64,000 nucleotides of DNA from Azoarcus indigens. GTDB taxonomy: Bacteria > Pseudomonadota > Gammaproteobacteria > Burkholderiales > Rhodocyclaceae. Below are positions 15,368 through 56,903 of this stretch, in pieces. Both the position numbers and the translations under genes were made by a program. Position 1 is the stretch's first letter; every line of letters begins with the position of its first letter. The stretch covers positions 124,001 through 188,000 of the forward strand of contig NZ_SNVV01000007.1 of NCBI RefSeq assembly GCF_004361735.1, written 5' to 3'. The notes beneath the pieces are model-generated. The model saw only the letters and a list, made by a program, of their open reading frames with translations, ran no database searches and was not told the DNA's origin.

Positions 15368-17287
15368 GTGCGCCGCCCGCCCCGACTCACCGCCCTGCTG
15401 CCGCGCCCAGCCGGCCCGGCGCTGCGCGCCGCCGCGCTGACGCTGCTGGTGGTGTTCGCCACCCTGGGCCTGCAATGGCTGGCCTGGCGTCAGTACCGCG
15501 CGGTGGAAATGCGCGAGGCGGCCGCCGCCTTCGCCCGCGTCGCCGATCAGTCCACCCTGTCGCTGAACCAGCAGCTCACCCATTACCGCAACGCCCTGCT
15601 CGCCCTGCGCGCCGCCTACATGGCAGCCGAGGGCTTCAGCGTCGAGGAGTTCGCCCGCTACATCCAGATCCTGGGCATAGACCGCGGCCTCTCCGGCCTG
15701 CGCGCGCTCGCCTTCAACCGCGCCGTCAGCGACACCGAACGCGACGCTTATCTCGCCGAGGTGCGCCAGCGCAACAAGGCCTACGACCCGATCTACGCCG
15801 AGTTCGACATCTACCCGCCTGCGCGCCGGCCCTTCTACCATGTCGCAGAAATGGTGCAGCCGCCAGCCGGCAACCAGCGCTCCCTGGGCTACGACTTGCT
15901 GTCCGACGAGGTCCGGCAACGCGCCATCGAGGAGGCCGGCGAACATGGCTTCGCCGCCACGCCGCCGCTGCGCCTGCGGCAGGATCCGGACGCGCTGGCG
16001 GTGCTGCTGCTCACCCCGGTGCCCACCCCCAGCCCGGAAGGCAAGCTGCGCCCATCCAACACACTGGGCGCCTCCTTCGTCGTCACCGATCTGGTGGAGA
16101 CCGCGCTGTCGCCGGCACTGCGCCGGCAGTTCAATCTACGCCTCACCGACCTCGGCGCCGCCGGCAGCACCTCCCTGCAGGCACAGCCGCTGTTCGACGA
16201 CGGCTTTCCGGCGACGCCGGACCTGCGCGCGGTGCGCAGCGAACTGGTATTCGGCGGCCGCCGCTGGCTGCTGGAGTTCCACCCGGTACAGCCACTGCTA
16301 CCGCCGATCGCGCGCCACGAGCTCGCCGCCCTCTTCATCGCCGGGGCGCTGCTGGCCGGCACCGTTGCCCACCTCACCCAGCAGCGCCTGCAGCGCAACA
16401 GCCGCGACCACGCGCTGGCGCGCCTGGCATCGGACTGCGTGATGCGGGTGGACGCCCATGGTCATGTGATAGACGCCGACCATACCGCGCTGCGCATCAC
16501 CGGCCGCAGCGCCGAGCGTTGGCGGAATCTGCCCTTGTGGGCCAGCTGCGCGCCCGGCGCCCATGCAGAAACCATACGCTCACTGGTGATGAGCGTGGCC
16601 GCCGAGCGCAACAGCGGCAGCGCGGAATGCCGGATACTGGGCGACGACGGCAAGGAACACTGGATCTCCCTGCGCCTGGGCAACCACCTGGAACATCCCC
16701 ACCTGCGCTGCCTGCTCGCCCAGCTTTCCAGCATCGCCAAGCGCAAGGCCGCCGAGGCGGAGATCGAACGCCTCGCCTTCTTCGACCCGCTCACCGGCCT
16801 GCCCAACCGCCGCCTGCTGGAAGAGCGCGCCGAACTGACACTGAGCGCAGCCCGCCGCCAGCCCGGCCACGCCGCGCTGTTGGTGATAGACCTTGACGGC
16901 TTCAAGACGGTGAACGACGAAGGCGGCCATGCCGCCGGTGACAAGGTATTGGAGATCGTCGCCGAACGCCTGCAGGCCGCCATCCGCGCCAGCGACACCG
17001 CCGCCCGGCTGGGCGGGGATGAATTCGTGGTGCTGCTGGGCGCGCCGGCCAACGAAGCCGACGTGCGCGCCACCGCGCTGCGCCTGGCGCGCGCCATCGC
17101 CCTGCCGGCGGTGGTGCAGGAGCGCGGCTGGACAGTGACCGCCAGCATAGGCATGGCGCTCTATCCGCTGCATGGCACAGACTTCGCCAGCCTGCTGGGC
17201 GCCGCCGATGCGGCGATGTACCGCAGCAAGCACGGCGCCAAGGGCCTGCATGTGATGGCCGCCGACCCGGACGAGCTGACGGCCTGA
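15368..17287 (+). CDS. CHASE-sensor diguanylate cyclase (GGDEF)
   Basis: The 639-residue protein begins at a GTG eight bases after the slipin stop. Order of domains: TM helix (~18-35), periplasmic CHASE domain (~65-260, with LGIDRGLSGLRALAFN and YPPARRPFYHVAEM), second TM helix (~318-338), a PAS-like linker (~350-460) and a GGDEF domain (~470-630). The active-site motif is canonical (RLGGDEFVVLL), and the inhibitory I-site RxxD is present five residues before it (RASD), so it should be an active, product-inhibited c-di-GMP synthase. Its closeness to nfeD-slipin suggests co-transcription; the ligand of the CHASE domain is unknown. Confidence 0.9.
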   Translation: MRRPPRLTALLPRPAGPALRAAALTLLVVFATLGLQWLAWRQYRAVEMREAAAAFARVADQSTLSLNQQLTHYRNALLALRAAYMAAEGFSVEEFARYIQILGIDRGLSGLRALAFNRAVSDTERDAYLAEVRQRNKAYDPIYAEFDIYPPARRPFYHVAEMVQPPAGNQRSLGYDLLSDEVRQRAIEEAGEHGFAATPPLRLRQDPDALAVLLLTPVPTPSPEGKLRPSNTLGASFVVTDLVETALSPALRRQFNLRLTDLGAAGSTSLQAQPLFDDGFPATPDLRAVRSELVFGGRRWLLEFHPVQPLLPPIARHELAALFIAGALLAGTVAHLTQQRLQRNSRDHALARLASDCVMRVDAHGHVIDADHTALRITGRSAERWRNLPLWASCAPGAHAETIRSLVMSVAAERNSGSAECRILGDDGKEHWISLRLGNHLEHPHLRCLLAQLSSIAKRKAAEAEIERLAFFDPLTGLPNRRLLEERAELTLSAARRQPGHAALLVIDLDGFKTVNDEGGHAAGDKVLEIVAERLQAAIRASDTAARLGGDEFVVLLGAPANEADVRATALRLARAIALPAVVQERGWTVTASIGMALYPLHGTDFASLLGAADAAMYRSKHGAKGLHVMAADPDELTA

Positions 17288-32243: not shown

Positions 32244-32609
32244 ATGAAAACGATCTTCCTCGTCGACGACTCCGCCACTATCCTGCTGTCCATCTCCAAC
32301 ATCCTCAGCAAGGCCGGCTATGGGGTGGAAAAGGCGCCCAACGCCCTCGACGCCCTCAAGAAATTCCAGGCGGGAGTGAAGGTCGATCTGCTGATCACCG
32401 ACCTCAACATGCCGGGCATGAACGGCATCGAGTTCATCAAGGAGGTGCGCAAGCTCACCCCCTACCGCTTCATGCCCATCCTGTTCCTGACCACCGAATC
32501 GCAGCAGGCCAAGAAGGCCGAAGCCAAGGCCGCCGGCGCTTCCGGCTGGATCGTAAAGCCCGCTTCGGCGGATGAACTCCTCAACACGATCAAGCTGGTC
32601 ATGCGCTGA
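32244..32609 (+). CDS. CheY-type response regulator
   Basis: The 121-residue single receiver domain has the full phosphorylation site: acidic pair Asp8-Asp9 (FLVDDSATI), phospho-acceptor Asp53 ([13 protein letters not shown]), the switch Thr83-84 (LFLTTES) and Lys105 (GWIVKPAS). It is the first gene of a ten-gene chemosensory cluster and ends one base before the next ATG. It should be phosphorylated by the CheA encoded at 34218-36398. Whether it acts on flagellar motors or another output cannot be read here. Confidence 0.9.
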
Positions 32610-32610
32610 G

Positions 32611-33879
32611 ATGCCACTTCACACCCTACTGCGCCGCTCCATCATCGTCTTCGCCACCGTCGCCGCGGTGGCGGGGCTGACGGTGTTCCTCCTCAACGAA
32701 TGGTTCCATGCCCACTTCCTGCCGTCGGTAGGGCTGGCCCAGCCTTTCGGTGACGCGATCGGCACGGTGCTCATTGTCAGCGTGGCCTATCTCGGCCAGC
32801 GCCTGGTGTCCCTAGCCTTCTTCCGCGACCACATGTACGGCTTCGCGACCTCACAGGAACAGTTGCAGCACACCTCCAGCAACGTTTCCTCGGTATCGGA
32901 CGAAGTGGTGAAGGAGTTGCGCGCAGTCCCCACTTTCAATGACGTGTTGCGCGGCCAGCTGGACAGCGTGATCCAGCAGACAGAGCTCGCGGCCTACCAG
33001 ATCACCGAGCGGCTGCAGGCAATCGACGGCGTGGTCGGCCACCTCAATCATTTCGTCGCCACCAGCTCCTCCGAGTCCAACCAGATGGCGCACGACTCGG
33101 AAGAACGCATCGCCAACAACCAGAAGCTGATCGGCGAGATGCGGCAGTACATCGAGAACCGCATCGCCGAAGCAGCCGAGGACCAGGCCCGCATCGCCAA
33201 AGTAGTCGGCGAAGCACGCGAGCTGGAAGCCCTCACCCGGCTGATCAAGGACATTGCGGCGCAGACCAATCTGCTCGCCCTCAACGCGGCCATCGAGGCG
33301 GCGCGCGCCGGCGAGGCCGGCCGCGGCTTCTCAGTGGTGGCCGACGAAGTGCGCAAGCTCTCGGCCGAGACGGAGAAGGCGGTCATCGCCATCAACCGCG
33401 GTATCGAGGGCGTGGCCAACACCATAGAGACGCAGCTGCGGGAAAAACTCTCCGCCAACAACCTGGACCGCGAGCAGGCCGCCCTCAGCCAGTTCGCGGA
33501 CCAGCTCACCGACCTCGGCCACAGCTACGAGGAAATCCTGCTGCACCAGGGCAAGGTCATCGAAACCGTGGGCGCCAGCAGCCAGGAACTGGCGCAGATG
33601 TTCATGGATGCGCTCGCCAGCGTGCAGTTCCAGGACGTGACCCGGCAGCAGATCGAACAGACCTCCGAGGCCCTGCAGCGGCTGGACCAGCACCTGGACC
33701 AGCTGGCCGAACGCCTGGTGCAGGCCGAGAACCCCGACTTCCGCTACATCCCGCTGTCCGTACACCTGGAGGAGATCTACGCCCGCTACGTGATGGACCA
33801 GCAGCGCAACACCCACAACGAATCCCTCCACCAGTCGGACTCCTCGACCGGCGGCGGTTCCAAGGTCGAACTTTTCTGA
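32611..33879 (+). CDS. MCP-like chemoreceptor without periplasmic sensor, carrying a CheZ-like motif
   Basis: The 422-residue protein has two TM helices close together (~10-28 and ~47-70) with only a short loop between them, so no extracytoplasmic ligand domain. The MCP signalling hairpin is at ~215-250 ([20 protein letters not shown], then [13 protein letters not shown]). After it comes a helical segment with [13 protein letters not shown] (Asp342, Gln346), the D-x3-Q spacing of the CheZ phosphatase active site, and a flexible tail ending GGGSKVELF, like a CheZ CheY-binding tail. No cheZ is in the cluster. It lies between cheY and the STAS gene. A phosphatase role is inference. Confidence 0.82.
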
Positions 33880-33889
33880 GTTCTCCGCC

Positions 33890-34204
33890 ATGAGCAAAGC
33901 CACGACTGGCTGCCAGCGCCTGGCGATCGTCGACGACATGACGATCTACAACGCCGCCGCCCAGAAACAAACCCTCATCGAAGCTCTCTGCGGCTGCGAC
34001 GAACTCGAGCTGGACCTCTCCACCGTCGGCGAGATCGACACTGCCGGCTTCCAGCTGCTCATCCTGGTCAAGCGCGAAGCGCGACGGCTGGGCAAGCAAG
34101 CCCGCATCGTCGCCCACAGCCCGGTAGTACGGGAGACGGTGGACTTCTTCAACATGGCCGCCGATTTCGGCGACCCCATGCTGATTCCCGCACAAGAAGG
34201 CTGA
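33890..34204 (+). CDS. STAS-domain protein of the chemosensory cluster
   Basis: The 104-residue protein is a single STAS domain: LELDLSTVGEIDTAGFQLLILVKREA contains the usual strand-turn-helix (given here as LDLSTVGEIDTAGFQLLIL), with Thr in place of the phosphorylatable Ser of SpoIIAA-type proteins at DTAG. STAS proteins are found in some chemosensory operons between receptor and CheA genes. It sits 10 bases after the MCP and 13 before cheA. A role as adaptor or anti-anti-sigma-like switch is inferred. Confidence 0.82.
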   Translation: MSKATTGCQRLAIVDDMTIYNAAAQKQTLIEALCGCDELELDLSTVGEIDTAGFQLLILVKREARRLGKQARIVAHSPVVRETVDFFNMAADFGDPMLIPAQEG

Positions 34205-34217
34205 GGCGCTCGCGATC

Positions 34218-36398
34218 ATGGATGAAATCACCACAGTCTTCGTCACCGAGAGCCGCGAACAGCTCGCGGCCATGGAAGCGGCCCTGCTGGAGCTGGAAAA
34301 CTCGCCCGGCGACTCGGACACGCTGAACGCCATCTTCCGCTCGGCGCACACCATCAAGGGTGGCGCCGGGGTGGTGGAGTGCGACTTCATCGTCGCCTTC
34401 ACCCACGTGGTCGAGAACGCGCTGGACAAGCTGCGCAACGGCGAGATCGCCGTCGATGGCGACCTCGTCGCCGTGCTGCTCGCCTGCTCCGACCACATCA
34501 ACGCCCTGCTGGACGTGCTCGAATCCGGCATGCCGGCGCCCGCCGCCGATCTCCAGGCCGACGGCAACGCCCTGCTGGACCGCCTGCAGCGCGGCTGGCT
34601 GAGCGGCGAAGGCAAGCAATCCGACGACAGCACTCCGCCCGCCACCAGCGACGGCACGGTGGAGAGCAGCGGCGGCGGCGTGGTGGAAACCGACTGCTGG
34701 CACATCTCCCTGCGCTTCGGCCAGGACGTGCTGCGCCAGGGCATGGACCCGCTGTCCTTCCTGCGCTATCTCACCTCGCTCGGCACCATCGTCCGGCTGG
34801 AAACCCTGGCGGATGCCATGCCGGCGGCGGACGACATGGACCCGGAGGCCTGCTACCTCGGCTTCGAGATCCACTTCGCGTCCAGCGCCGACAAGGCCGC
34901 CATCGAGCGGGTGTTCGACTTCGTCCGCGATGAGTGCACTCTCCACATCCTGCCGCCGCGCAGCCGCCTGGCCGACTACGTCGCCCTGATCAAGGCGCTG
35001 CCGGAAGACCCGATGCGCCTGGGCGAAATCCTGGTGCGGGTGGGCGCGCTAACCCAGGCCGAGCTGGACGTCGGCCTGGCCGCGCAGCAGGCAACGGAAG
35101 CCGCTGCCACCGAGGAAACCGCGGCGCCGCCGCTGGGCGAGATCCTGGTGGAGCAGCAGGTCGTCCAGCCCGAACTGGTCGAAGCCGCGGTGGTGAAGCA
35201 GAAGCAGGTCGGCGAGAAGAAAGCCGCCGAGGCGCGGCTGATCCGCATCCAGGCCGATAAGCTGGACGCGCTGATCGACCTCGTCGGCGAACTGGTGATC
35301 GCCGGCGCCGGCGTGAACCTGCTGGCCGCCCGCTCCGGCCTGGCCGAACTCACCGAGGCCACCTCAGTGATGAGCCGGCTGGTGGAGAGCATCCGCGATT
35401 CCGCCTTGCAGCTGCGCATGGTGCAGATCGGCGAAACCTTCAACCGCTTCAACCGGGTGGTGCGCGACGTCTCCAAGGAACTGGGCAAAGACATCGAACT
35501 GGTGGTGAGCGGTGCCGAGACCGAGCTGGACAAGAGCGTAGTCGAGAAGATCGGCGACCCGCTGATGCACCTGGTGCGCAATGCCATAGACCACGGCATC
35601 GAGCCGGCCGAGGCGCGCGCCGCCGCCGGCAAGCCGGAGCGCGGCCGGTTGTCGCTGAACGCCTGCCACGACTCCGGCAGCATCGTCATCGAGGTTGCCG
35701 ACGACGGCGGCGGCCTCAACCGCGAGAAGATCGCCCGCAAGGCAATGGAGCGCGGCCTGGTGCCGGCCGGCCACACGCTGAGCGACCAGGAGGTCTACAA
35801 CCTCATCTTCGAACCCGGCTTCTCCACCGCAGACAAGGTCTCGAACCTGTCGGGCCGCGGCGTTGGCATGGACGTGGTCAAGCGCAACATCCAGAGCCTG
35901 CGCGGCCGGGTAGAAGTGGATTCCCAGCCGGGCGAAGGCACCCGCTTCACCATCCGCCTGCCGCTCACCCTGGCCATCATCGACGGCTTCCTGGTCGGCG
36001 CCGGCAGCGCCGGCTACGTGGTGCCGCTGGACATGGTGGTGGAGTGCCTGGAACTGCCGCCGCAGGCCGGCGACAGCCACTATCTCAACCTGCGCGGCGA
36101 GGTGCTGCCCTTTATCCGCTTGCGCGACCTGTTCGAGATCCGCGGCGAGCAGCCGGTGCGGGAGAACGTGGTGGTGGTCAAGGCCGCCGGCCAGAAGGCG
36201 GGCATCGTCGTCGATGAACTGCTGGGCGAATTCCAGACGGTGATCAAGCCGTTGGGCCACCTGTTCCGCAATCTGCGCGGCATCGGCGGCTCCACCATCC
36301 TCGGCAGCGGGGAGGTGGCTCTCATCCTGGACGTACAGGCCCTGATCCATCTCGCCGCCCACCGCGACGAACCCAACGCAATCCTCAACCGCAGCTAA
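34218..36398 (+). CDS. cheA: Chemotaxis histidine kinase CheA with MshEN-like insert
   Basis: The 726-residue kinase has an HPt P1 domain with His44 (FRSAHTIKGGAGV), a second alpha/beta domain (~157-247), then an insert (~267-330) with two copies of a short motif (MRLGEILVRVGALTQAEL and PLGEILVEQQVVQPELVEA), then dimerisation P3, the ATPase P4 (HLVRNAIDHGIE, EVADDGGGLN, GRGVGMDVVK) and the CheW-like P5 (~600-720). The two-copy motif resembles MshEN/GspE-N repeats, some of which bind c-di-GMP. All catalytic boxes are intact. It phosphorylates the CheY and CheB of this cluster. Confidence 0.93.
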   Translation: MDEITTVFVTESREQLAAMEAALLELENSPGDSDTLNAIFRSAHTIKGGAGVVECDFIVAFTHVVENALDKLRNGEIAVDGDLVAVLLACSDHINALLDVLESGMPAPAADLQADGNALLDRLQRGWLSGEGKQSDDSTPPATSDGTVESSGGGVVETDCWHISLRFGQDVLRQGMDPLSFLRYLTSLGTIVRLETLADAMPAADDMDPEACYLGFEIHFASSADKAAIERVFDFVRDECTLHILPPRSRLADYVALIKALPEDPMRLGEILVRVGALTQAELDVGLAAQQATEAAATEETAAPPLGEILVEQQVVQPELVEAAVVKQKQVGEKKAAEARLIRIQADKLDALIDLVGELVIAGAGVNLLAARSGLAELTEATSVMSRLVESIRDSALQLRMVQIGETFNRFNRVVRDVSKELGKDIELVVSGAETELDKSVVEKIGDPLMHLVRNAIDHGIEPAEARAAAGKPERGRLSLNACHDSGSIVIEVADDGGGLNREKIARKAMERGLVPAGHTLSDQEVYNLIFEPGFSTADKVSNLSGRGVGMDVVKRNIQSLRGRVEVDSQPGEGTRFTIRLPLTLAIIDGFLVGAGSAGYVVPLDMVVECLELPPQAGDSHYLNLRGEVLPFIRLRDLFEIRGEQPVRENVVVVKAAGQKAGIVVDELLGEFQTVIKPLGHLFRNLRGIGGSTILGSGEVALILDVQALIHLAAHRDEPNAILNRS

Positions 36399-36469
36399 GC
36401 CGCAGCCCTAGCAGATAGCCAAACCGTTTTCCCCGTTCCCATCAATTCCGTCTCTGCACGAGGCCCCAA

Positions 36470-38173
36470 ATGTTCGGCAACCTGCGTATCGGCGTAAAAC
36501 TCGCCCTCGCCTTCGGCATGGTCATCCTGATGCTGCTCATCATCACCGCGGTGAGCGTCATCCGGCTGGCTGGCCTGGGTGAAGAAATCGACTCCACTGT
36601 CAACAAGCGCTTCCCGATGACGGTCTGGTCCAACACCGTCATCGACCAACTCAACGTTGCCGGCACCGCAATGCGTGACCTCGTGCTGGCGCATACCCCG
36701 CAGGAACGCCAGGAGGCGCTTGACCGCCAGAGCCAGACCAGCGCCAACGTCACCGCTGCGCTGGAAAAGCTCAACGCCAACGCCGTCACCGCCGAAGACA
36801 AGGCGCTGCTGCAGAAGGTCGAGGCCGTCCGCGCCGCCTACCGTTCGCCGCGCCAACGCGCGATGGATGCAATCCAGGCCGGCCGCCTGGAAGAGGCCAG
36901 CGCCATCGTCACCGGCGAGTTGCGCCTGGCCCAGACTGCCTATATTCAAGCCCTGAACGACCTGATCAAGTATGAAACGCAGCAGATGGACGAAGCCGGC
37001 GCCCGCGCGGCGGACAGCGCCCAGTCCGCCCGCACCGTGCTGATGGTGCTCGGCGTCATCGCCATCCTGCTGGCGGTACTGTTCGCCGTGTTCATCACCC
37101 GTTCCATCGTCCAGCCAGTACGCGAGGCGGTGGGCGTGGCCAATGCGCTGGCCGAGGGCAACCTGGCGGTGCGCATCGACGCCAGCCGGCGCGACGAGAC
37201 CGGCCAGCTACTGGCGGCGATGCAGAACATGGTGGCCCAGCTGTCCCGCATCATCGGCGAGATCCGCAGCGCGGCGGACAACCTCTCCGCCGCTTCGGAA
37301 GAAGTCTCCTCCACCGCCCAGTCGCTGTCCCAGGGCGCCTCCGAACAGGCCGCCAGCGTCGAGGAAATCTCCTCCACGCTGGAGCAGGCCACCGCCTCGG
37401 TGGTGCAGAACACCGAGAACGCCAAGATCACCGACGACATCGCCTCCAAGGCCGCCGGCGAAGCCAGCGAGGGTGGCAACGCGGTGAAGGAGACGGTGAC
37501 CGCGATGCAGGCCATCGCCGAGAAGATCGGCATCGTCGATGACATCGCCTACCAGACCAATCTGCTGGCGCTCAACGCCGCCATCGAAGCCGCCCGCGCC
37601 GGCGAGCACGGCAAGGGCTTCGCGGTAGTTGCCGCCGAGGTGCGCAAGCTGGCCGAGCGCAGCCAGGTGGCCGCGCGCGAGATCGGCGAACTGGCTGGCT
37701 CCAGCGTCAAGCTGGCCGACAAGGCCGGCCGCCTGCTGGACCAGATGCTGCCCAGCATCCGCAAGACTTCCGACCTGGTGCAGGAAATTTCCTCCGCCTC
37801 CGAGGAGCAGAGCGCCGGTGTCGCCCAGATCAACCAGGCGGTGGGCCAGCTCAATCAGGTGACGCAGCACTCCGCCTCCTCCTCCGAAGAGCTGGCGGCC
37901 ACCTCGGAAGAGATGGGCGCCCAGGCGCAGCAGTTGCAGAACCTGATGCAGTTCTTCCGCGTCGAGGACAATGCCACGCCGCTGAAGACCGCCGCCCGCC
38001 AGGCCATCACCGCCGCCCGCCGTCCGGCGCCAGTCGCCGAACCGGCTCCCATGCCGACGCCCGCGCCGGCTGCCCCGGCCCGCGGCCGTACGCCTGCGCC
38101 GCGCGCCCCCGGCAAGCCGCTGCCCAAAAACACCGCCCTCTCGTTCGACGAGCAGGATTTCGAGCGCTTCTGA
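36470..38173 (+). CDS. Methyl-accepting chemotaxis protein with 4HB sensor
   Basis: The 567-residue receptor has TM1 (~10-32), a periplasmic four-helix-bundle (4HB_MCP-like) domain (~35-185), TM2 (~190-213), a HAMP domain (~214-265) and a cytoplasmic signalling domain with the hairpin [20 protein letters not shown]. An Ala/Pro-rich linker (~505-550) and the tail [11 protein letters not shown] close it, without an NWETF-type pentapeptide. Its cytoplasmic half is nearly identical in DNA sequence to the receptor at 38773-40602. Start ATG follows TCTGCACGAGGCC, a weak ribosome site. Confidence 0.93.
37202..37960 (+). repeat. First copy of a 759-base direct repeat in MCP genes
   Basis: This segment, covering the end of HAMP and the whole signalling domain, matches 39805-40563 at a constant offset of 2603 bases with no insertions or deletions, and contains many long runs of identical DNA. 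Only scattered substitutions differ. It points to tandem duplication kept similar by gene conversion. Confidence 0.85.
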
Positions 38174-38185
38174 GGAGCCCACGAC

Positions 38186-38746
38186 ATGGGACAGATCGTC
38201 GCCCGCGATAACAAGCCGCTTGCCGCTGCCGCCGCCGAAGCGCCCCAGCAGTACCTCACCTTCACCCTGAACGCGGAGATCTTTGCCATCGGCATCCTCC
38301 ACATCAAGGAGATCATCGAGTACGGCAGTCTCACCGAGATCCCGATGATGCCGGCCTTCATCCGTGGCGTGATCAACCTGCGCGGCGCAGTGGTGCCCGT
38401 GATCGACCTGTCGGCCCGCTTCGGCGGCCGCCAGACCGAGATCGCCCGCCGCACCTGCATCGTCATCGTCGAACTGGTGCAGACGGTAGAGGATGGCGAG
38501 CTGCGCCAGGACATCGGCATCATGGTGGACAGCGTCAATGAAGTGCTGGAGATTCCGGCCACCGACGTCGAGCCGCCGCCGGCCTTCGGCTCGCGCATCC
38601 GCACCGATTTCATCCGCGCGATGGGCAAGGTGGAGGGCCGTTTCGTCATCATCCTCGATCTCGACCGCGTGCTGTCCGTCGAGGAAATGGCCCAGCTTGG
38701 CGCCACCGCCGATGCCAGCGCTCCCGCCACCGACAATGCCGGCTGA
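38186..38746 (+). CDS. cheW: Chemotaxis coupling protein CheW
   Basis: The 186-residue protein is a single CheW/SH3-like domain: [42 protein letters not shown] and the end [16 protein letters not shown]. CheW bridges CheA and receptors. A slightly extended N terminus (~20 residues) is typical of this type. It lies between two MCP genes, inside the region bracketed by the 759-base repeats. Confidence 0.95.
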
Positions 38747-38772
38747 AGCCGGCGCACCGGACAACCCATCCA

Positions 38773-40602
38773 ATGCATCGCCTCGGCATCCTGGCCCGCT
38801 TCGCCCTGTTCGGCTTCCTGCCGCTCACCATCGCGCTCGTGATAGGCGCGGTCATACTCGCCATCAGCGAAACCAACCGCATCGGCGATGACGTCGCGCT
38901 GCAGTCCGAGCGCAGCGCCACCGCCATCATCAGCCTGCTGCAGGTCACCGACACGCTGACCGGCGAGCAGGTGAGAACCTCAATGAAGCTGTTCCGCGAC
39001 CGCAGCGCCATGAGCGGCCCCGCCGCGCTGGCCGGCCGCGCCAGCGTCGCCGGACGCGACGTGCCGGCGCTGTTCTTCGGCAGCCAGGCGCAGACCGACG
39101 CCACCGCGCTGGTGGATCAGGTGACCGCCATGGCCGGCGGCACCGCCACCCTGTTCGTGCGCGATGGCAAGGACTTCGTCCGCATCGCCACCAATGTGCT
39201 GCGCGAGGGCAAGCGCGCCATCGGCACCGTGCTGGACTCGCAGGGCGCCGCCTGGAAAGCGCTCAACGCCGGCCAGGCCTACTACGGCCAGGTTGGCATC
39301 CTCGGCTCTCCCTACCTCACCGGCTACGAGCCCATTCGCAACGGCGCCGGCGAGATCATCGGTGCCTGGTATGTCGGCTTCAAGGCGGACCTGCCCATCC
39401 TCAAGGACCAGGTGGGCAAGGCGGAGCGCTTCGGCTCCGGCTTCGTCGCCCTGCTGGACGACAAGGGCCAGCCCTTCCTGTGGACCGCCGGCCAGGACGC
39501 CAAGGGCATCGCCGACCGCCTGGCCAACACCGCGGGCTGGACGGTGCAGCGCCAGCCCTTCCCCGCCTGGGGCTTCTCGGTGGCGGTAGGCTCCAACGAT
39601 GCCGAAGTGCGCATGGCCGGCTGGACTCGCGCGCTGCCGGTGCTGATCGGCGGCCTGCTGTTCGCCGCCGCCCTGCTCGCCCTGCTCACCCTGGTGTTGC
39701 GCCGGGTGGTGCTGCGGCCGGTGCAGGAAGCGATGAACGCCGCCAACGCCCTGGCCGAAGGCGACCTCACGGTGCGAATCGAAGTGCGCAGCGGCGACGA
39801 AGTCGGCCAGCTACTGGCGGCGATGCAGAACATGGTGGCCCAGCTCTCCCGCATCATCAGCGAGATCCGCAGCGCGGCGGACAACCTCTCCTCTGCCTCG
39901 GAAGAAGTTTCCTCCACCGCCCAGTCGCTGTCCCAGGGCGCCTCCGAACAGGCCGCCAGCGTCGAGGAAATCTCCTCCACGCTGGAGGAAACCACCTCTT
40001 CGGTGGTGCAGAACACCGAGAACGCCAAGATCACCGACGACATCGCCTCCAAGGCCGCCGGCGAAGCCAGCGAGGGCGGCTCCGCAGTGAAGGAGACGGT
40101 GACCGCGATGCAGGCCATCGCCGAAAAGATCGGCATCGTCGATGACATCGCCTACCAGACCAACCTGCTGGCGCTCAACGCCGCCATCGAAGCTGCCCGC
40201 GCCGGCGAGCACGGCAAGGGCTTCGCGGTAGTTGCCGCCGAGGTGCGCAAGCTGGCCGAGCGCAGCCAGGTGGCCGCCCGCGAGATCCGCGAGCTGGCTG
40301 GCTCCAGCGTCAAGCTGGCCGACAAGGCCGGCCGCCTGCTGGAACAGATGCTGCCCAGCATCCGCAAGACTTCCGAACTGGTGCAAGAGATCTCCTCCTC
40401 CTCCGAGGAGCAGAGCACCGGCGTCAGCCAGATCAACCAGGCCATCGGCCAGCTCAACCGGGTTACCCAGCACTCCGCCTCCGCCTCGGAGGAACTGGCC
40501 GCCACCTCGGAAGAGATGGGCGCCCAGGCCCAGCAACTGCAGGAACTCATGCTGTTCTTCCGCACCGACGACAAGCGCCCAAGCGGCGCGCAGCGGGCAT
40601 GA
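38773..40602 (+). CDS. Methyl-accepting chemotaxis protein with Cache-type sensor
   Basis: The 609-residue receptor has TM1 (~10-32), a periplasmic Cache_3-Cache_2-like domain (~35-285; key stretches [39 protein letters not shown] and [11 protein letters not shown]), TM2 (~290-315), HAMP and a signalling domain almost identical to the previous MCP. The Cache type often senses small organic acids or amines, but the ligand is not predictable here. It ends without a methyltransferase-binding pentapeptide. Confidence 0.93.
39805..40563 (+). repeat. Second copy of the 759-base direct repeat in MCP genes
   Basis: Partner of 37202-37960. Differences are mostly synonymous or conservative (for example [16 protein letters not shown] versus [16 protein letters not shown]). 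Recombination between the copies would delete cheW and fuse the 4HB sensor of the first receptor to this signalling domain. Confidence 0.85.
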
Positions 40603-40653
40603 GGCCGGCGCCCGATCAAGCGGCGGCACCAGGCCGCCGGGAGACCCGCTGAC

Positions 40654-41481
40654 ATGGCCGCCCCCCCTCCCGCTCCGCCGCCCGGCAGCATCAGCGACCA
40701 GGACTTCGCCCGCTTCCAGCGCCTGCTCTACCAGCTGGCGGGCATCTACCTGGCGCCGTCGAAGAAGGTGCTGCTGGTCGGCCGCCTCACCCGACGGCTG
40801 AAAGCACGCGGCCTGAGCGAGTTCGGCGACTACTTCCGCCTGGTCTCCAGCGGGGAGGATCCGCAGGAACGCCAGACCATGGTGGATCTCCTGACCACCA
40901 ATGAAACCTACTTCTTCCGCGAACCCAAGCACTTCGACTTCCTGGTGAACGAGATCCTGCCGGCGCGCCTGCCCGGCAATACCTTCTCGGTATGGAGCGG
41001 CGCCTGCTCCAGCGGGGAGGAACCCTATTCGCTCGCCATGATCCTCGCCGACAAGCTGGGCGACAACGGCTGGAAGATCATCGGCTCCGACATTTCCACC
41101 CAGGTGCTGGAACGCGCCCGCCGCGGCCACTACCAGATGGAACGCATAGACGGCATCCCGCAAGCCTACCTGCGGCGCTTCTGCCTCAAGGGCGTGCGCG
41201 AACAGGAAGGCAGCTTCCTGGTAAACCGCGAGCTGCGCGCCAAGGTGCAGTTCATGCAGGTGAACCTGATAGAGCCGATTCCCAACATCGGCCCCTTCGA
41301 CGTCATCTTCCTGCGCAACGTCATGATCTACTTCGATCAGGAAACCAAGCGCAAGGTGGTGGCCAACATGCTGCCGCGGCTCAAGCCGGGCGGCTATTTC
41401 ATCGTCGGCCACTCGGAAACGCTCAACGGCGTCACCGAGCAGCTGCACGCACTGCGCCCCACCATCTACGTCAAGAAGTGA
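40654..41481 (+). CDS. cheR: Chemotaxis protein methyltransferase CheR
   Basis: The 275-residue enzyme methylates receptor glutamates with SAM. It has the N-terminal helical domain (FQRLLYQLAGIYLAPSKKVLL), TNETYFFREPKHFDFL, the SAM-binding VWSGACSSGEEPYSLAM, and DVIFLRNVMIYFDQETKRKV. It follows the second MCP and precedes cheD and cheB, completing the adaptation module. Confidence 0.96.
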   Translation: MAAPPPAPPPGSISDQDFARFQRLLYQLAGIYLAPSKKVLLVGRLTRRLKARGLSEFGDYFRLVSSGEDPQERQTMVDLLTTNETYFFREPKHFDFLVNEILPARLPGNTFSVWSGACSSGEEPYSLAMILADKLGDNGWKIIGSDISTQVLERARRGHYQMERIDGIPQAYLRRFCLKGVREQEGSFLVNRELRAKVQFMQVNLIEPIPNIGPFDVIFLRNVMIYFDQETKRKVVANMLPRLKPGGYFIVGHSETLNGVTEQLHALRPTIYVKK

Positions 41482-41485
41482 AGCC

Positions 41486-41986
41486 ATGGGGGCCGCCGAA
41501 TGCTATCTGGGCATGGGCGAATTCCAGTTCGCCAACAGGCCGCTGCGCCTACGGACCCTGCTCGGCTCCTGCGTGGCCATCGTACTCTGGCATCCTGAGC
41601 GCAGCATGGGCGGCATGTGCCACTATATGCTGCCGTCACGGCAGCAGGCGCCCGGCATGCCCCCGGATGGCCGCTACGGCGATGAGGCCATGATGCTGTT
41701 CGACCAGGCCATCGCCCGCTACCGCAGCCAGGCTACCGACTATCGCGCCCAGGTATTCGGCGGCGGCAACATGTTTCCCAGACAACAAACGGAGGGCTCG
41801 ACGCTGGACATCGGCCGGCGCAACATCGACACCGCGCGCCGGCTGCTGGCCGAACGCGGCATTCCCATCGTTGCCGAACACCTCGGCGGCTACGGGCACC
41901 GCAAGCTGGTGTTCGATGTGCATAGTGGCAAGGTCTGGCTGCTGTTCCAGGAAGAGAACAGGCCCTACCCCAGGAGACCTCAATAA
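41486..41986 (+). CDS. cheD: Chemoreceptor glutamine deamidase CheD
   Basis: The 166-residue protein deamidates receptor glutamines. The catalytic Cys is in [15 protein letters not shown] and the His in [19 protein letters not shown] and the C-terminal [11 protein letters not shown] are family features. The start is four bases after cheR, and its last base overlaps the cheB ATG, so translation is coupled. Confidence 0.95.
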
Positions 41987-43110
41987 TGAATCCAATACGC
42001 GTGATGATCGTGGATGACTCGGCGGTGGTCCGCCAGGTCGTCAAGCAGGCGCTGGCCCAGGACCCTGGCATCGAAGTACTGGGTGCCGCCTCCGACCCGC
42101 TGTTCGCCATCGAGCACATGAAACGCCAGTGGCCGGACGTGATCGTGCTCGACATCGAAATGCCGCGCATGGACGGCCTCACCTTCCTGAAGAAGATCAT
42201 GAGCGAGCATCCCACCCCGGTGGTGATCTGCTCCTCGCTAGCCGAGAAGGGTGCCGAGGCAACGATGAACGCGCTCGCCGCCGGGGCGGTCACCGTCATC
42301 ACCAAGCCCAAGATGGGCCTGAAGCAGTTCCTGGAAGACAGCTCCAACGACATCGTGCACGCGGTCAAGGCCGCCGCCCGCGCCAATGTGCGCAAGCTGC
42401 AGAGCCGACCGGCCGCCGCGACCAGCCCCGGCAGCGCCACCGCGGCCGCCGGCTTCACCCCCCGGCCCAAGCTGTCGGCGGATGCCGTCATCGCCTCGCC
42501 CGGCTCCGGGCTGGGCAGCGGCGCCAACATGGTGCGCACCACCGAGCGCATTGTTGCCATCGGCACCTCCACGGGCGGCACCCAGGCGCTGGAGGCGGTA
42601 CTGACGCGGCTGCCTGCGGTATGCCCGGGCATCGTCATCGTCCAGCACATGCCGGAGCGCTTCACTGCGATGTTCGCCGAGCGCCTCAACGGCCTGTGCA
42701 AGATCGAGGTGCGGGAAGCCCGCCACGGCGACCGCGTGGTCCCCGGCCGGGCCCTGATTGCCCCCGGTGGCAAGCACATGATGCTGTCGCGCAGCGGCGC
42801 CCAATACACGGTGGAAGTCGTAGACGGACCGCTGGTGAACCGTCACCGGCCGTCGGTGGACGTGCTGTTCCGCTCCTGCGCCAAGTTCGCCGGCCGCAAC
42901 GCCCTGGGCGTGATCATGACCGGCATGGGCGACGACGGCGCCCGCGGGCTGAAGGAGATGCGCGACGCCGGTTCGCAGACGGTGGCGGAGGACGAATCCA
43001 CCTGCGTGGTGTTCGGCATGCCGAAGGAGGCGATCCGCATGGGCGGCGCTGAAGCCATACTGCCGCTGGACCGCATTCCCAACGCCATCATGCAGTCGGC
43101 GCGGGACTGA
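41986..43110 (+). CDS. cheB: Chemotaxis response regulator methylesterase CheB
   Basis: The 374-residue protein has a receiver domain ([12 protein letters not shown]; phospho-Asp in [14 protein letters not shown]) and a C-terminal methylesterase with catalytic Ser ([12 protein letters not shown]), His ([17 protein letters not shown]) and Asp ([12 protein letters not shown]). It removes methyl groups from receptors after phosphorylation by CheA. It is the last gene of the cluster. Confidence 0.96.
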
Positions 43111-56486: not shown

Positions 56487-56903
56487 CTAGACCAGCGAGC
56501 GCCCCATCACGATCTCCACCGCTTCCCGCTCGGTGATGCGCACCGTGGCGTTCACGATCACATGGGTCACCAGCCAGTCCTGCAGGCGGAACAGGCCGTC
56601 GTCCTTCACCTCGACGAACTGGCAGCCGGCCAGGCCGCCCTCCGGCGAGGCGGAGTGGCTGACCACGGCGGCGGTACCGCGGATCTCGTCCGGCACGCCC
56701 TCGCGCACCAGCGTGAAGTGGAAAGGCTGGCCGGCCGGCGGCGGCGTGGTCGCCGGCATGGAGAAGCCTTCCAGGGAAAGATCGTTGAGCGCGATGCGTT
56801 CGCCGTCCAGCATCACCCAGAAGCAGGGCTCGCCCCGACGCAGGGCGAGGAAACGCTGACGGCCGCGCCGTTCCTGTGCATCGTTGGTCACCGCAGTCGT
56901 CAT
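56487..56903 (-). CDS. PilZ-domain protein
   Basis: The 138-residue protein carries both c-di-GMP-binding elements of PilZ domains: an N-terminal Arg motif (ERRGRQRFLALRRGE) and a D/NxSxxG-type motif (ALNDLSLEGFSM), then a beta-barrel. The C-terminal ~35 residues form an extra helix-like tail. It may be an effector for c-di-GMP made by cyclases such as the one at 15368-17287. Its output is unknown. Confidence 0.82.
   Translation of the reverse strand: MTTAVTNDAQERRGRQRFLALRRGEPCFWVMLDGERIALNDLSLEGFSMPATTPPPAGQPFHFTLVREGVPDEIRGTAAVVSHSASPEGGLAGCQFVEVKDDGLFRLQDWLVTHVIVNATVRITEREAVEIVMGRSLV

Follow-up and report, generated by a model that had tools for sequence, protein, structure and literature searches.

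A predicted c-di-GMP-binding MshEN_N module between the P2-like unit and P3 in a STAS-linked lineage of CheA kinases

Could a CheA kinase itself serve as a receptor for c-di-GMP? This second messenger reaches chemotaxis via adaptor proteins, receptors or the motor. The question is raised by one gene in a 64,000-nucleotide stretch of Azoarcus indigens DNA (hereafter the window), where an open reading frame at 34218..36398 (+ strand) encodes a CheA histidine kinase of 726 amino acids, as identified from the reading frame, Pfam and an AlphaFold2 model. A sequence-only reading of this protein had noticed repeated wording at 35016-35207, attributed it to a two-copy MshEN-like insert between the P2-like and P3 domains, and suggested that kinase activity might respond to c-di-GMP.

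The domain layout of the window CheA is that of a multidomain kinase in which the Hpt (P1, residues 4-96), dimerisation (P3, 340-398), HATPase (P4, 448-584) and CheW-like (P5, 590-711) domains all score above their Pfam cut-offs. At about residues 160-247, the AlphaFold2 model has a beta-alpha-beta-beta-alpha-beta unit (161-245) that we call P2-like, and for which there is no Pfam P2 match. It is followed by an MshEN_N-like module at about residues 264-340. The limits of the repeated wording are correct (base 35016 opens the codon of Arg267 and base 35207 closes that of residue 330), and its placement between the P2-like unit and P3 is borne out by Pfam and by the full-length model.

The module contains two MshEN-type motifs, both recognized from NCBIfam model NF053729, PDB profile matches and conservation. 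Motif I (residues 267-290, RLGEILVRVGALTQAELDVGLAAQ; 35016..35087, + strand) fits the consensus RLGxxLVxxGxLxxxxLxxxLxxQ except for Ala11, in place of the Leu, Val or Ile expected there. Motif II (residues 305-328, PLGEILVEQQVVQPELVEAAVVKQ; 35130..35201, + strand) retains Gly3 and Gln24, with Arg1 replaced by Pro, Gly10 by Gln, and Leu17 and Leu21 each by Val. In the alignment, a 14-residue linker (residues 291-304; 35088..35129, + strand) separates the two motifs; MshE has a five-residue linker according to passages of PMC5013675, the source of the consensus. The strict MshEN_N consensus (twice RLG..LV..G.L....L...L..Q, with a five-residue linker) does not describe the window CheA. The observation of two MshEN-type motifs in this CheA is confirmed. 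The wording LGEIL-V---V-QAEL/QPEL captured two real motifs but paired QAEL with QPEL one residue out of register; in the MshEN register, TQAEL and QPELV both occupy positions 13-17.

The two motifs do not reveal each other by similarity. Compared in register, they share 7 of 24 residues and have a BLOSUM62 score of 24. Shifting to the best ungapped pair nearby (268/306) raises the score to 27, which takes fourth place when every 24-residue pair in the protein is ranked (top score 35), and in shuffled versions of the window CheA the best score averages 29.8 with a maximum of 37 (60 shuffles, 150 start rows sampled each). Taken alone, the internal repeat of the window CheA has no excess over chance in these 60 shuffles. 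The two-copy repeat counts as real because of NF053729, the PDB profile matches and the structure, and not because of its internal score.

NF053729 ('c-di-GMP-binding, MshE-related'; 53 positions) has a curated cut-off of 38 bits, and it scores 43.4 bits (E 2e-11) both against a 98-residue segment of the CheA and against residues 250-345. Against the full-length window CheA it scores 35.9 bits, below the cut-off. Among eight module-bearing CheAs scanned whole, seven fall below 38 bits and locus L020 alone passes, at 45.5; the full-length scores include 31 bits for L030, 30.3 for L025, 32.5 for L171, 31.2 for L172, 31 for L174 and 28 for L175. A whole-genome search in which neighbouring matches were summed gives 46.5, 44.2 (the window's) and 39.3 bits for the three MshEN-CheA frames. 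All 78 CheA inserts scanned, including that of the window, match NF053729 at E<=0.01, which is an E threshold and not the curated cut-off. A profile made from these 78 inserts and searched against PDB sequences finds PilF (6e-16), PilB (7e-7 and 1e-6), MshE 5htl (2e-5) and PilF GSPII-B entries, and the first apparently unrelated entry stands below these at E 0.72. The strongest stretch is PilF 302-360, in GSPII-C, and the best stretch of the match to MshE itself spans motif I only. With the window CheA alone as query, phmmer gives a PilF match at 260-334 (E 0.007).

Pfam's own MshEN model, PF05157, has no match in the window CheA at E<=10 and none among the 78 inserts at E<=1. As a check of this yardstick, we fetched 30 PF05157 loci and sought a relaxed form of the motif by regular expression. 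The relaxed motif was found in ten of the 30; the expression found none in the other 20 or in the own-genome loci L001-L006. In eight of the ten (L117, L119, L121, L125, L126, L135, L142 and L143) the end of the last motif precedes the PF05157 match by one residue, and in L122 and L127 only the first motif is found, 29 residues further upstream, consistent with the same layout. PF05157 seems to describe the C-subdomain, and since it starts just after the tandem motif in these loci, a missing Pfam match says little about the motif, which this model is unsuited to ruling out. In the full-length model of the window CheA, the alpha/beta C-subdomain is absent after motif II and P3 comes directly. 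Separately, the insert (residues 268-330, 35019-35207) weakly resembles Pfam DUF4388, which matches 61 of the 78 inserts at E<=1 (best 2.6e-4) and scores 11 bits against the window segment (cut-off 25). DUF4388 may hold a related helix hairpin.

Residues 250-345 were modelled with AlphaFold2 using 78 alignment rows. The domain model (pLDDT 87) has four helices following a leading one, and the full-length model has helices at residues 268-275, 280-296, 306-312 and 318-340. The last of these, helix alpha-4, ends about five residues before the start of the P3 helix (346-373) in the full-length model, and its end together with the short stretch before the P3 helix is encoded by 35202..35252 (+ strand). 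The top VIA-align match is c-di-GMP-bound MshE (5htl_B; Z 8.9), with 58 residues superposed at 1.3 A and 28% identity. MshEN, GSPII-B or PilB N-domains fill the first ten VIA rows (Z 8.9-6.5), and the next row has Z 4.9; helical bundles can reach such values by chance, so what counts most for us is that the sequence profiles agree with the fold and that Z drops sharply after these rows. In Foldseek the best E is only 0.2, with probabilities of 0.94-1.00 for eleven MshEN-type rows and of at most 0.09 for others. The MshEN/GspE-N assignment made from sequence is supported by both profile matches and predicted fold. On computational evidence, this CheA carries a genuine four-helix MshEN_N module (GSPII N-subdomain), inserted after the P2-like unit and ahead of P3.

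How the module is conserved bears on what it does. We aligned 109 CheAs (the window copy, L007, included), which comprise 29 of 30 retained loci from a query with the insert and 80 pattern-found loci. Six short patterns, of which KQKQVGEK represents the insert end, had given 551 loci, and the 80 best of these were retained. Seven rows without both motifs (L028, L029, L031-L034 and L036) were excluded from the counts, and the 102 CheAs with both motifs are 22 (L007 included) plus the 80. Alignment A1 holds 78 of the 102 (thinning at 75% identity left 79, and L027 was dropped for a long extra insert); the full-length alignment A2 has 44 rows hand-picked from the 79. Because the rows are related, their counts should not be read as independent. 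Of the 102 CheAs, 99 have Gly3 and Gln24 in both motifs, and 60 keep every contact position (2, 3, 17, 21 and 24 of both motifs, aliphatics allowed); most of the shortfall comes from Ala at position 21 of motif II, present in 35. Motif I has Arg at position 1 in 87/102, and at position 1 of motif II there is Pro in 54/102, Gln in 15/102 and Arg in 8/102; Gly10 of motif II is kept in 21/102. Linker length ranges from 1 to 28 residues, with 11-17 residues in 77 of the 102 and exactly five in three. The ten contact positions have a mean entropy of 0.49 bit, compared with 1.72 for 29 other positions in the motifs (Mann-Whitney test, one-sided, p 0.0005, a guide only as the rows are related); for comparison, the mean is 1.06 for P3 and 1.26 for the P2-like unit. 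The invariant insert residues in the 44-row alignment are G269, L272, G307 and Q328, three of which are contact positions.

Judging from these residues, it is likely that the CheA insert binds c-di-GMP. Binding is credible because the insert keeps Gly3 and Gln24, and because Pro1 of motif II has a precedent in GSPII-C. On its own and lacking the C-subdomain, the N-subdomain of MshE binds c-di-GMP with a KD of 0.35 uM (PMC5013675). Excerpts of that paper, PMC11731258 and PMC12002112 describe binding by MshE with two Arg1 residues and tighter binding by PilF GSPII-B, which has Lys and Leu at position 1. As described in passages of PMC11731258, GSPII-C binds c-di-GMP with Pro at position 1 of motif II as its only deviation; since it has three motifs, this is not a clean precedent. 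Against binding stand the missing Arg1 and Gly10 of motif II and the linker of 14 rather than five residues in the window CheA. According to parts of PMC12002112, a non-Gln24, Ser1 and Ala3 of motif II harm binding in GSPII-A, and motif II Ser1 accompanied complete loss of binding in an engineered PilF GSPII-A construct.

We propose that one c-di-GMP would be bound by the module, with a strong first half-site formed by Arg267, Leu268, Gly269, Leu283, Leu287 and Gln290, and a weaker second half-site formed by Leu306, Gly307, Val321, Val325 and Gln328. Because helix alpha-4 runs almost directly into P3, the ligand would alter the connection of P1/P2 to P3. The altered connection could raise or lower autophosphorylation or phosphotransfer, and we make no prediction of the sign of the effect. 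c-di-GMP would then feed into the array alongside the receptors, as a second input. Control of the kinase by c-di-GMP is plausible from the position of the module, and the whole explanation, an MshEN_N module in CheA with predicted c-di-GMP binding and predicted kinase control, appears moderately probable.

The alternative that survives best is that the module, though truly homologous to MshEN_N, no longer binds a ligand and serves only to hold P2 and P3 apart as a rigid helical spacer, in the manner of Xanthomonas XpsE or PilF GSPII-A; we consider it unlikely. Non-binding members of the family are known (PMC5013675; parts of PMC12002112), and in most of the 102 CheAs residues 1 and 10 of motif II are not those of the consensus. 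Moreover, L028 and L029 have lost most of the module though they are nested among module-bearing CheAs in a quick tree (with long-branch warnings, and with L056 left out for its truncated frame), so the module is dispensable there. A spacer, however, has no need to keep Gly3 and Gln24 in both motifs (99/102) while the linker varies between 1 and 28 residues. The changes in XpsE and GSPII-A, as excerpts of PMC5013675 and PMC12002112 describe them, include the position-24 Gln and the position-3 Gly, both of which the CheA insert retains.

The genomic setting of cheA concerns both the source of the ligand and possible partners. The run of che genes spans 32244-43110 and lies on the + strand. Upstream of cheA, domain searches identify a CheY-like response regulator (32244..32609), a protein with an MCP signalling domain (32572..33879) and, directly before cheA, a STAS-domain protein (33890..34204; Pfam STAS_2 and STAS). 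Downstream, reading frames and domain searches give an MCP (36470-38173), CheW (38186-38746), an MCP with Cache (38773-40602), CheR (40654-41481), CheD (41486-41986) and CheB (41986-43110). The receptors at 36470-38173 (4HB) and 38773-40602 (Cache) have a near-identical signalling region and different sensor domains, as if duplicated.

Module-bearing CheAs form a proteobacterial lineage in a conserved CheY/MCP-STAS-CheA-MCP-CheW cluster. Of the 78 loci with enough upstream DNA, 70 have a STAS frame that starts no more than 700 bases ahead of cheA; a separate tally under a stricter position rule gave 57 of 70 loci. Gene lists show STAS before cheA in six of the eight loci that failed the 700-base rule and none in L041 and L077. 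The STAS protein may be an output partner. The A. indigens genome has four CheAs by PF02895, plus one frame of 2164 residues below the cut-off; three of the four have the module together with STAS, CheY and MCP-domain genes upstream, and the fourth, beside CheZ, has neither module nor STAS. At E<=0.001 and with the own genome included, a search with the insert gives matches in 31 of 61 close relatives and in 43 of 274 genomes from the class, and the weaker matches in these counts cover part of the query only or are CheAs without the module. The same gene order, with CheY and the MCP-domain gene swapped, recurs on plasmid records from Aeromonas sp. BC14 and Pseudomonas sp. HR96, where the cheA gene is labelled simply chemotaxis protein CheA. 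MshEN-bearing che clusters occur on the plasmid records of L174 (NZ_CP102455.1), L175 (NZ_CP139142.1) and L073 (Aromatoleum buckelii pU120), and the first two plasmids are typed as non-mobilizable. In L056 and L105, the CheA is apparently split over two frames in draft contigs, perhaps by a frameshift.

The sequence-only reading had also tied the insert to GGDEF and PilZ genes in the window, and this link is not supported. The window's diguanylate cyclase candidate is a CHASE-PAS-GGDEF protein (15368-17287; GGDEF match 16775-17236) encoded 17 kb upstream of cheA. The PilZ gene, 20 kb downstream, encodes a small protein (56487-56903, - strand) with a marginal match (56592-56792; 22.4 and 22.3 bits, just under the 22.5 cut-off). 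Both genes lie outside the che run. The genome (5.46 Mb) has 62 GGDEF, 34 EAL and 4 PilZ matches, and about 0.7 GGDEF matches are expected per 64 kb. We therefore rejected the GGDEF/PilZ neighbourhood as support. Given the same genome-wide matches, c-di-GMP is very likely made by the host.

A conserved neighbour also invites the reading that the module is a docking site for a protein (a PilZ protein, the STAS protein or a polar landmark) and not a nucleotide receptor. Among the structures that the model matches are PilB N-domains from the PilB-PilZ complexes 7lko, 7lkn and 7lkm (VIA Z 6.5-6.8), so the fold can bind proteins, and the STAS gene accompanies cheA in 70/78 loci. We nevertheless regard this reading as quite improbable: the most conserved positions are mainly those that touch the nucleotide in MshE, the six closest VIA structures are c-di-GMP-bound (Z 8.3-8.9), and only four PilZ matches are found in the genome, the one in the window being marginal. 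That the repeated wording is a chance or low-complexity likeness in an Ala-, Leu- and Glu-rich linker has a negligible probability. In its favour, the two copies alone score no better than shuffles and the segment has no Pfam match above cut-off, but the NF053729, PDB and structural matches and the conservation over divergent CheAs refute it, and a PF05157 match is not expected where that model begins after the motif (8/10 loci).

Returning to c-di-GMP binding by CheA itself, a broader proposal would cover the STAS-linked lineage of Beta- and Gammaproteobacteria, in which CheA would be a c-di-GMP receptor that gates the kinase core through the P2-P3 connection, with no PilZ adaptor. In A. indigens, three of the four stand-alone CheAs would be wired to c-di-GMP and the CheZ-linked, flagellar-type CheA would not. 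We offer this tentatively and would put it somewhat short of an even chance. If true, the global c-di-GMP level would set the kinase output of the whole array, and there would be a handle on STAS-linked systems, to which the ancestral F7 system is similar in gene set. Comparisons are built in: the genome has two MshEN-CheA paralogues and one CheA without the module, and L028 and L029 are natural deletions.

The MshEN-CheA architecture as such is not new, because Wang et al. 2016 already state in one sentence that MshEN is associated with CheA, with the CheAs in Supplementary Table 4 (PMC5013675). The excerpted text of that paper holds no binding or kinase data for CheA. Among the matches listed in open-licence PubMed Central, a collection apart from subscription journals and preprints, there were no c-di-GMP binding or kinase data on any such CheA. 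New here are the placement between P2 and P3, the lineage-wide conservation of contact residues, the long linker, the weak second half-site, the tie to the STAS cluster and the reason for the Pfam miss.

Among known chemosensory systems, F7 stage 1 is likened to the window cluster by gene set and order alone. As described in parts of PMC7184735, it has cheY, cheA, cheW-like, receptor, cheR, cheD and cheB genes, together with anti-sigma-factor antagonist genes and an McpA-like receptor; the window differs in having its STAS gene between cheY and cheA. The terms 'c-di-GMP' and 'GSPII' have no occurrence in the main text of PMC7184735, a passage of which calls the ancestral F7 system 'of still-unknown biological function'. 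NfrB, a c-di-GMP-activated glycosyltransferase, resembles the CheA insert in that its NCBIfam model matches 61 of the 78 inserts at E<=0.01, and differs in being a glycosyltransferase and not a kinase. The GSPII-C domain of Thermus thermophilus PilF (6f8l_G, 302-360) is the best PDB sequence match, and both have Pro1 in motif II. In the PDB alignment, its motif I ends at 327 and its motif II starts at P335, leaving a seven-residue linker; unlike the CheA module, it has a third motif and sits in an ATPase, as passages of PMC11731258 describe. The MshEN_N of Vibrio cholerae MshE (5htl) has the same two 24-residue motifs, four helices and contact positions 2, 3, 17, 21 and 24. The CheA module differs from it in the 14-residue linker (five in MshE), in Pro1 and Gln10 of motif II in place of Arg1 and Gly10, in lacking an MshEN_C subdomain, and in its host, which is a kinase whereas MshE is a pilus ATPase.
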